Positions 35,602-37,438 of a DNA stretch of 64,000 bases are shown piece by piece. The position numbers and the translations under genes are program-made. The notes under the pieces were generated by a model. The model was given only the letters and a program-made list of their open reading frames with translations, had not been told where the DNA came from and searched no databases. The DNA is from Sulfitobacter faviae (GTDB taxonomy: Bacteria > Pseudomonadota > Alphaproteobacteria > Rhodobacterales > Rhodobacteraceae): positions 1 to 64,000 of the forward strand of contig NZ_PGFQ01000001.1 in the NCBI RefSeq assembly GCF_029870955.1, in the 5' to 3' direction. Position 1 is the first letter of the stretch. Every line of letters begins with the position of its first letter.

Positions 35602-37014
35602 TCACAGGCTCCGCACCCCCGGGCTGCGCCACTGCGCGGCAGGCTCGATCATCAGCTCATGCAGCGCCCAGACCAGCGCATCGGCGCGGTCCGGGCTGCC
35701 CTTGCCCTCGTACCCCCGCGCCGTCATCAGACACATCTGATCCTCCAGCGCATCGAGCCCCGGCAAATGGCTCACCCGGCCCTGCTCATAAAGCGCCGCC
35801 ACAGGCTCGGCCCGCGCCACCTTGCCCCGCGCCGCATGCACGGTCTTGAGCGAGACCAGCGGATCGACCTGCCGCAAGACCTCGGCCACCAACTGCCCGC
35901 CCTGATTGACCTCAGCCACCAACCGATCCGCCCCGTAGCGCGTCATCGCCGCAATCGCCGCCTGCGCCCAGCCCATCGGCGTGGCCCCCTGCACCGTGCA
36001 ATCGGCCAGCACCACCGCCCGCCAATCCTGCGGCGGCCCCTTGGTCTGCGCCCCCACCACCACGATGCCACATTCATCCGATCCCGCCCCGCTGGTCGTG
36101 GCAGGGTCAAGGCCCACCACGATGCGGTCCAACTCCGGCGCCTCCCGCAGCCGCCCCGCCTCTAACAAGGCCGAGGTCCACAGCGCCCCTTCGGCATCGG
36201 CCAACAGAACCCCGTCCAACTCCTGCCGCCCCAGCCGCGTGCCCCGGTAGCGCGCCCGCACCTCTTCAAGGAACGACCCCGCCAGATTGGCCGCATTCGC
36301 CTCCGTCGGCGCATGGGTCGTGACCGTCGAGGGCGCGGCCAAAAGCGCCTTCAACACATCTACGTTGCGCGGTGTCGTCGTCACGCAGACCTGCGGGCGC
36401 TCCCCCAAACGCAGCGCAAACTGCAACTGGTCCCAAGCCTCCTGCCCGCGCTTCCACTTTGCCAATTCATCCACCCAAGCCGCATCGAACTGCGGCCCGC
36501 GCAGCCCTTCGGGGTCATGCGCCGTATGCACCGTGGCAATCGCCCCATTCGGCCAGACCAACCGCTTGCGCGTCGCCTCCCAATCGGGCCGCCGATCCGG
36601 CGGGCTACAGGCCAGAATGCCGCTGTCGCCAAAGATCATCACCTCGCGCACCTGCTCGATGGTCTCGCCCACCAGCGCCACGCGACTGCACGCACCGGGG
36701 TCAAGCGGTCGGCTCCCCTCAACCTTGCTGCGGACCCATTCCGCCCCGGCCCGCGTCTTGCCCGCGCCGCGCCCGCCCATGATCACCCATGTCCGCCAAT
36801 CGCCCTCGGGCGGCAGTTGGTGGTTGAGCGCCCAGAACTCAAACAAAAAAGGGAGAGCCAGAAGCTCTCCCTCACCGAGTTCATTCAGAAACTGCGCCTG
36901 GGTCTGAGCATCGGCGCAGGCGATCCAGCTTGCACCCGATGTCAGCCCGCGCTTTGTCCATGTCGAGGGCATAGCCCCCGCGCGCGATTCCAGCTTGTCG
37001 GTTCCGACAGTCAT
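35602..37014 (-). CDS. GTA gp2, large terminase subunit
   Basis: ATP-driven motor and nuclease that packs headfuls of host DNA into GTA heads. Walker A is VIMGGRGAGKTRAGAEW, Walker B is GPQFDAAWVDELAKW, and the nuclease Asp lies in IVVGLDPATTSGAGSDECGI. An ATG at 37014 gives 470 residues; another at 36972 (MPSTWTKRGLTSGASW) fits the family length better. Either start lies inside gp1 in a different frame, so gp1 and gp2 overlap by 90-130 bp. Confidence 0.93.
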   Translation of the reverse strand: MTVGTDKLESRAGAMPSTWTKRGLTSGASWIACADAQTQAQFLNELGEGELLALPFLFEFWALNHQLPPEGDWRTWVIMGGRGAGKTRAGAEWVRSKVEGSRPLDPGACSRVALVGETIEQVREVMIFGDSGILACSPPDRRPDWEATRKRLVWPNGAIATVHTAHDPEGLRGPQFDAAWVDELAKWKRGQEAWDQLQFALRLGERPQVCVTTTPRNVDVLKALLAAPSTVTTHAPTEANAANLAGSFLEEVRARYRGTRLGRQELDGVLLADAEGALWTSALLEAGRLREAPELDRIVVGLDPATTSGAGSDECGIVVVGAQTKGPPQDWRAVVLADCTVQGATPMGWAQAAIAAMTRYGADRLVAEVNQGGQLVAEVLRQVDPLVSLKTVHAARGKVARAEPVAALYEQGRVSHLPGLDALEDQMCLMTARGYEGKGSPDRADALVWALHELMIEPAAQWRSPGVRSL

Positions 37015-37224
37015 TCAGCGTGTTCTCCGCTTTCAGGCAATGCGCCAGCAGTCCCGCCACTTTGGACGTTTTGCCAGACACCGCAGTTTCCTTGAGTTCC
37101 CCCCGGACCGGGCCTGTTCCGTCAGACCTTCGATTTCCCGACGCAGCGCGCCGATTGCTTCTTGGAGACCGCGCAGGATTTCCGCGCTGTCTTCCGTCTC
37201 TTGCTCCGGGGTAATGATCGTCAT
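36881..37224 (-). CDS. GTA gp1, small terminase subunit (one frameshift)
   Basis: First gene of the GTA operon, about 114 residues. It starts MTIITPEQETEDSAEILRGL at 37224 with GAGAGG nearby, then a coiled-coil stretch (LQEAIGALRREIEGLTEQAR). After a break near 37085 it resumes VSGKTSKVAGLLAHCLKAEN and ends with a basic tail (RADIGCKLDRLRR). The pattern fits RcGTA TerS, which guides packaging without a pac site. Length 3n+2. The second half is overlapped by gp2. Confidence 0.8.
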
Positions 37225-37264
37225 CGCTTTACCTCTCGTTGGTTATCCCCAACCGAGCAGACAC

Positions 37265-37297
37265 AAAAAAACGACCGCCGGGTCACCCCGGGGCCGT
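37265..37297 (-). terminator. intrinsic terminator in the GTA leader (candidate attenuator)
   Basis: Read on the minus strand, ACGGCC-CCGGG, a GTGA tetraloop, then CCCGG-C-GGTCGT give 11 base pairs with one bulged base, followed by seven T. It lies about 40-75 bp upstream of gp1 and downstream of the candidate promoter at 37325. A 20-codon ORF (37243-37305, MGKRPRGDPAVVFLCLLGWG) runs across it but has poor ribosome-site spacing. On the plus strand there is no T-run, so it points toward the GTA genes. Confidence 0.75.
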
Positions 37298-37324
37298 TTG
37301 CCCATGTCCTCTAGCGTGCCACAA

Positions 37325-37353
37325 GTCCTACGTCAGACCGTCCGCAAAGTCAA
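37325..37353 (-). promoter_or_regulatory. candidate promoter of the GTA operon
   Basis: On the minus strand, TTGACT and TAGGAC are separated by 17 bp. Transcription would start near 37318, about 95 bases upstream of gp1, and pass through the terminator at 37265-37297. The site lies between the mltG terminator and gp1. Identified only by consensus. Confidence 0.45.
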
Positions 37354-37410
37354 GAAAAACTGTGTTAACAAGACCTTACAGAGGCGCGCGGCAAGCTCTC
37401 CGCGCGAATA

Positions 37411-37438
37411 AAAACCCCGCTGTCTCCAGCGGGGTTTT
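37411..37438 (-). terminator. terminator after mltG
   Basis: AAAACCCCGCTG pairs perfectly with CAGCGGGGTTTT around a 4-base loop; the minus strand then reads TTTTTATT. It ends 9 bp after the mltG stop and insulates the fab-mltG genes from the GTA operon. Confidence 0.92.

Follow-up and report, generated by a model that had tools for sequence, protein, structure and literature searches.

The late genes of phages lambda and 21 lie behind a promoter-proximal terminator at PR', and the Q protein that acts there depends on two sites, one in the promoter spacer to which it binds and a -10-like pause element just past the transcription start (PMC6606751). A similar layout is found at the AlpA promoters PalpB and PPA0807 of Pseudomonas aeruginosa, which control lysis genes that are on in a subset of cells and combine a binding element in the promoter spacer with leader terminators that begin at +54 and +26 (PMC7969949, PMC9371919). 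PalpB carries a -10-like CACGAT at -1 to +5, and antitermination by AlpA at this promoter needs A+1 and T+5 (PMC9371919, PMC7969949). Among gene transfer agents (GTAs), CcGTA of Caulobacter crescentus is activated by GafY and IHF and is under antitermination by GafZ, the homologue of the GafA C-terminus, which passes terminators and for which a putative binding element lies between the -35 and the -10 (PMC11150451). The same report, Tran and Le 2024, suggests antitermination for GafA too; none of the known antiterminators is reported to be similar to the predicted structures of GafZ, and no relation between GafA/GafZ and Q is reported (PMC11150451). The sequence of the Q binding element differs from that of the GTA element described below. 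By the title of a further report (Korotaev et al. 2025), the BaGTA of Bartonella, which is a different, chimeric GTA, is likewise under antitermination.

The mode of action of GafA, which interacts with the omega subunit of RNA polymerase and activates the GTA cluster in Rhodobacter capsulatus, is debated between polymerase recruitment via omega, as proposed in PMC9638019, and unrecognized antitermination (PMC11150451). Full-length GafA bound only a probe 76-125 bases upstream of g1 that contains the -10 element and the start site (Fogg 2019, PMC6363796); binding of the C-terminal domain of GafA was placed on this fragment, too, and that of the N-terminal domain on the two flanking ones (Sherlock and Fogg 2022, PMC9638019). 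By word search, "hairpin" and "terminator" (or "terminat") are absent from the main texts of PMC6363796, PMC9638019, and PMC6854486, and a leader terminator before gp1 is not described among the open-licence PMC matches listed, a scope beyond which most subscription papers and bioRxiv preprints fall. An earlier note on this DNA knew of no described attenuator at this position, which agrees with the literature matches listed; antitermination by GafZ in the GTA of Caulobacter was, however, reported in 2024 (PMC11150451).

We here analyzed a stretch of 64,000 nucleotides from the beginning of contig NZ_PGFQ01000001.1 of Sulfitobacter faviae (the window) and compared its GTA locus with those of related bacteria. 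The conservation of a leader stop signal in most genera examined suggests that the particle genes may be switched on by a protein that enables readthrough. The features of the locus are listed in Table 1; downstream of the promoter, terL is accompanied by the genes for the portal, the GTA head-formation protein (NF048001), the prohead protease, and the capsid, and this gene set identifies the cluster as RcGTA-type. The terL of the window shares 97% identity with that of S. delicatus. Its gp1 frame encodes 63 aa compared with 114 aa in 35 of the 42 relatives examined, and 210 bases, not 211, separate the gp1 start from terL. The copy in the window is therefore either frameshifted or contains a sequencing error. 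Upstream of the GTA promoter, mltG is encoded on the same strand.

Table 1. Features of the window at the start of the GTA cluster.
Feature	Position	Strand	Basis or remark
Separate terminator-like hairpin immediately 3' of mltG, upstream of the GTA promoter	37407..37438	-	read from sequence
-35 element TTGACT	37348..37353	-	read from sequence
CGGACGGTC spacer element, consensus CGnaCG[GC]TC	37336..37344	-	candidate GafA/GafZ binding element
Weak -10 element TAGGAC	37325..37330	-	read from sequence; degenerate across genera
CACGCT, predicted -1 to +5 (predicted +1 = A37317)	37313..37318	-	candidate sigma-dependent pause element
Conserved initial transcribed region, consensus AwGCT[AG]GAAGAAGTGGGCAA	37298..37317	-	motif and alignment across genera
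Terminator-like stem-loop of 13 pairs with C37277 bulged out; loop GTGA at 37286-37283	37269..37299	-	fold
T7 tract	37265..37271	-	read from sequence
Second hairpin including start of gp1 RBS (GAGAGG 37237-37232)	37235..37257	-	fold
gp1/terS frame, 63 aa; start ATG 37224	37033..37224	-	frameshifted vs relatives
gp2 = terL, terminase large subunit	35602..37014	-	Pfam Terminase_6N/6C
Terminator-like hairpin and T run, early in terL	36849..36873	-	scan and homologous-site comparison

Sequence and fold bear out the promoter-like pair and the hairpin with T run that the earlier note had placed ahead of gp1, including the GTGA loop and the run of seven T; the stem, which had been given as 11 pairs, folds with 13 pairs and a bulged C. 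The -35 and -10 elements are separated by a 17-base spacer. A simple promoter scan of 12 kb, which produced two hits, did not pick up this TTGACT/TAGGAC pair because the scan requires a -10 element ending in T and TAGGAC ends in C. In the genome of S. faviae, a single site matches the promoter pattern exactly, and matches with two mismatches are no commoner there than in the control. With the transcription start at A37317, a prediction from the -10 spacing, the stem begins at +19. A stable GC-rich hairpin is thus directly followed by a T-rich tract, as in intrinsic terminators, at the level of the sequence. By itself and in the window sequence only, however, this leader hairpin is unremarkable: The 55-nt RNA from the predicted +1 folds with z = -1.9 and the 106-nt leader region with z = -3.2, and a simple scan of 12 kb found 17 terminator-like sites compared with 9.7 (sd 3.2) in shuffled sequence. 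The feature rises above chance because it is conserved across genera and because its stem arms co-vary.

Conservation was assessed in a sample of one genome per genus of Rhodobacteraceae (198 genomes, of which 175 have terL) using 148 of the 150 listed terL places among these 175 genomes (G182 and G013 were excluded). Hairpins were scanned in the region from 480 to 190 bases upstream of terL at 147 loci, with L020 being too short. A hairpin and T run at -18 kcal/mol or below was detected in 110 of the 147 genera, a number that includes a few hairpins positioned outside the leader, where 2.8 would be expected from 30 dinucleotide shuffles of each locus. The hairpin is therefore conserved in close relatives, which the earlier note had named as a point on which its proposal could fail. 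An iterated two-block motif scan, with motif and score trained on the same loci in which they were counted, found the promoter module and start site in 108 of 148 genera and in 106 at a stricter cut. The order of the module is TTGAC, CGnaCG[GC]TC, a weak -10, a CAnGCT-like site at the predicted -1 to +5, the hairpin, and the T run; downstream of the weak -10 the consensus across genera reads TTGTGaCAwGCT[AG]GAAGAAGTGGGCAA and then continues into the hairpin. Among the 106 genera, each base of the -35 TTGAC is 96-99% conserved, and the G at base 2 and the C at base 5 of CGnaCG[GC]TC reach 99% each. When the A of CA is taken as +1, A+1 and T+5 are present in all 108 module genera; compared with the consensus -10, just 2-3 of 6 bases of the -1 to +5 site agree.

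A script recognized the hairpin with its T run in 97 of the 108 module genera, with medians of +19 for the start of the stem, +49 for the base that directly precedes the T tract, and -22.5 kcal/mol for the stability. Of the 108 module genera, 104 have at least 5 T within 8 bases at +41 to +66, compared with 4 at +67 to +92. Two further sets, which share species with the genus sample, gave the same picture: Module and hairpin are present in 28 of 29 further Sulfitobacter loci (the best 29 of 56 genomes with terL), and among 79 named loci the module was found in 71, 68 of which have the hairpin. Some of the 40 genera (of 148) below the module cut-off retain a variant with hairpin (e.g., L170, L176, L178, L179, L196, and L208); in L193, L210, L211, and L223 a GCTGG-like start is kept and the scan finds no hairpin plus T. 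DUF6456 (PF20057), the GafA/GafZ family, was present in all 20 tested of these 40 genera. Since the hairpin can be absent where DUF6456 is present, the terminator is either dispensable in some lineages or the GTAs of these lineages are decaying.

The two arms of the stem have changed together. Across the 97 genera, arms bind their own partner at -22.9 kcal/mol compared with -16.9 kcal/mol for swapped partners, the loss upon swapping rises from 1.7 to 8.2 kcal/mol as the arms diverge, and the own arm ranks within the best 5% in 39 of 97 genera. The table of pairs from these genera is partly circular because the hairpins were folded sequence by sequence, and the swaps together with a 48-row alignment serve as controls. 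This alignment consists of R. capsulatus and 47 rows chosen by eye among the first 60 of 81, the latter being the 97 hairpin genera minus, by script, about half of those with loops of other than 4 bases. Of 8 named pairs, 7 have changes on both sides, and not one of five measures was reached by any of 500 shuffles, a control that can be inflated by the kinship of the rows and for which the slide and swap controls provide a partial answer. Sliding the partner lowered the covariation score from 0.317 to 0.024-0.139 and the number of double-change cells from 32 to 2-13; 2-6 pairs then retain some both-side change, and a slide of +3 leaves 85% of the counted cells paired. Judged from these sequence comparisons, selection acts on the stem as a paired structure.

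In addition to the leader hairpin, a second one with CTCTCGTGCG...CGCATGAGAGG-like stems is found in many genera (z < -1.5 in 38 of 97, mean z -1.2) and might possibly serve translational control of gp1. In a longer leader, the initial region can also pair with the T run and the bases that follow it (37259-37309, minus strand), which lengthens the stem; the same holds for R. capsulatus.

The genome that we assigned to R. capsulatus, a member of the best-matching genus, has a portal 100% identical to the RcGTA portal of PDB 6tba, and its reading frame between the start of g1 and the published 3' primer measures 324 bases, which is the published length. Four of 5 primer-derived strings match this genome, with pGTA R being the one without a match. 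The g1 primer string, with no matches in IMG/VR or in 18 genomes of the genus, spans a deletion junction, as its halves are separated by ~100 bases in the R. capsulatus sequence. Primer pGTA F matched one of 394 genomes, inside mltG; by its g1 primers this genome is not R. capsulatus, yet it has the module. In R. capsulatus itself the module is present upstream of g1, and the probe bound by GafA, when mapped onto this sequence, extends from the end of the -35 element to the first base of the stem. The equivalent of CGGACGGTC falls within the bound fragment, and we infer that exactly this element may be what GafA or GafZ binds.

A GafA/GafYZ homologue is encoded in the genome of S. faviae: DUF6456 is single-copy there, as it is in all 36 genomes searched, and Caulobacter alone matches among 14 control genomes. 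In S. faviae (region G000:C1:2807969, L338), GafA is represented by two ORFs, one GafY-like and one GafZ-like, with an ATGA overlap that was read from the translations and with a tentative start codon for the first ORF. This split arrangement is comparable to the separate genes of Caulobacter and unlike the fused GafA of R. capsulatus; L345, the second genome examined from this genus, likewise has separate GafY-like and GafZ-like ORFs.

Each part of the Q and AlpA layout thus has a sequence counterpart in the GTA module, in the same order, with a spacer element (the motif of 106 genera) and a terminator after the promoter and before the genes, as at PR'. The CACGCT of the window occupies the same register as CACGAT of PalpB (PMC9371919, PMC7969949). 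Unlike the AlpA promoters, the GTA module is conserved through a family and drives a particle cluster. With CcGTA it shares the position at a GTA main promoter, a regulator of the GafA/GafYZ family, a putative binding element in the spacer, and terminators, here predicted ones, to be passed, whereas the terGTA of CcGTA is made up of three GC-rich repeats of 150 bp that lie downstream of the first gene, its start codon lies at +251, and its -35 is degenerate (PMC11150451); the window has one short hairpin of the intrinsic type ~18 bases past the predicted start, a good -35, and the conserved -1 to +5 site. We consider a promoter-proximal terminator of the GTA cluster that is bypassed by GafA/GafYZ antitermination to be the best explanation of these observations and probably the correct one, and the antitermination of the kind known from phage late genes that the earlier note had proposed is also our preferred reading of the conserved module. 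RNA polymerase would start at A37317 and be slowed by the -10-like sequence at -1 to +5. Without an antiterminator, it would halt at the hairpin and T7 ~50 bases on and release a short leader RNA. The GafA C-terminal or GafZ part would bind the element between -35 and -10 and load onto the early polymerase, which could then pass the leader terminator and, in roseobacters, also a second terminator inside terL. Termination at the hairpin, pausing at the -1 to +5 site, and readthrough caused by GafA are all inferred in this scheme. Several points weigh against it: 40 of 148 genera fall short of the module cut-off, the contact of GafA with omega could account for control of the cluster with no need of antitermination, the N-terminal domain of GafA bound on both sides of the C-terminal site, and the terminator known from Caulobacter is placed beyond the first gene instead of in the leader.

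The terminator-like hairpin early in terL, whose site is present in 126 of 130 loci compared, reaches -10 kcal/mol or below in 22 of 29 genera from the top of the family sample, 60 of 77 named loci, and 6 of 20 loci of the Rhodobacter set, and it is better than all 15 synonymous shuffles in 17 of 29, 55 of 77, and 2 of 20, respectively. At the R. capsulatus site, neither a fold of -10 kcal/mol or below nor one better than all synonymous shuffles was found. This hairpin fits a guarded operon, but it is lineage-specific (roseobacters).

Four other explanations of the leader hairpin have to be weighed against antitermination. The earlier note had also offered translation of a leader ORF as the switch, in which ribosomes on a 20-codon ATG ORF (37305-37243) would open the hairpin. 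This ORF is indeed present in the window, and 73 of 97 genera have an [AG]TG codon where it starts. However, the phase in which the hairpin would be read varies among the three frames (42/28/27), and in 26 of the 97 genera the frame stops ahead of the T run, so that no conserved ORF with a frame overlapping the hairpin emerged from this set. In R. capsulatus, the leader frame runs for six codons and stops within the loop, and in the window its start codon is located 12 bases from the predicted start site and lacks a normally spaced ribosome site as read from the sequence, which together make leader-peptide attenuation extremely improbable. An attenuator or riboswitch made of RNA only, with an alternative antiterminator fold that competes with the hairpin, would agree with the conservation of the leader and with the outer extension of the longer leader, in which the T run and the bases beyond it are paired to the initial region. 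In swap tests, however, clear co-variation was confined to the pairing of the stem arms with each other, which was matched in stability by 0 of 30 swaps (a difference of 5.9 kcal), and a conserved, mutually exclusive antiterminator pairing was not found, with only small residual signals: The own pairing of the initial region with the left arm was less stable than swaps, the left arm with the downstream part was marginal (2 of 30 swaps as stable) and the right arm with it gave 3 of 30, and the initial region with the downstream part exceeded its swaps by 0.3 kcal (0 of 30 as stable), a small gain that possibly reflects relatedness. No Rfam family reached its cut-off, and we regard this explanation as very unlikely.

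The position of mltG on the same strand upstream might suggest that the hairpin is a mere terminator of this gene or a boundary insulator. This reading is hardly credible, since a separate terminator-like hairpin at 37438-37407 already follows mltG ahead of the GTA promoter and since module and hairpin are retained in 28 of 33 named loci without an adjoining mltG. Stem-loops at the 5' end are able to protect mRNA, so the hairpin could instead be a stabilizer or processing site of the GTA transcript with control exerted by GafA-driven initiation only, as would be consistent with the binding of GafA to the promoter and its interaction with omega. A stabilizer requires no T run, though, whereas the T run is kept in the great majority of module genera at the position given above, and GafZ is a demonstrated antiterminator in Caulobacter (PMC11150451); we therefore judge this explanation to be unlikely, if less so than the other three.

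More tentatively than the antitermination of a leader terminator as such, we propose that Rhodobacteraceae GTAs including RcGTA may be controlled by a switch in the style of phage late genes throughout, a possibility about which we remain rather undecided. Transcription would then initiate also in GTA-off cells and yield a leader RNA of ~50 bases, GafA would chiefly be an antiterminator loaded at a sigma-dependent pause, and the second terminator of roseobacters, embedded in synonymous positions of terL, would guard against leaky readthrough. If this is true, the rare, all-or-none GTA-producing cell would reflect a readthrough decision beyond a promoter decision only. The leader hairpin would supply the missing cis-element for the antitermination idea in the model species, help to explain the silence of a lethal cluster in most cells, and connect GTAs to the AlpA lysis switch and the phage Q systems.

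Beyond the family, terL matches were found in 43 genomes of a class sample, 41 of them outside Rhodobacteraceae, and 20 upstream regions of the latter were examined. Six of these 20 (L361, L366, L367, L372, L374, and L376) have a possible gp1-leader hairpin with T, as read by eye and without a shuffle control, so this is suggestive only. In L361, L374, and L376, which represent three other alphaproteobacterial families, a CACGCT/AACGCT/CACACT-like start precedes the hairpin and T, again as a merely suggestive observation. A scan of IMG/VR with the start motif gave 28 matching stretches, and the terminases found in phage records were all below 60% identity. Four of 58 Sulfitobacter genomes (L378-L381) lack the segment from terL residue 184 to ~406 of the large tail protein; in these, terL and the large tail protein are joined in one frame, an open frame of 835-874 aa in three and 418 aa in one, and the promoter and leader hairpin are retained.
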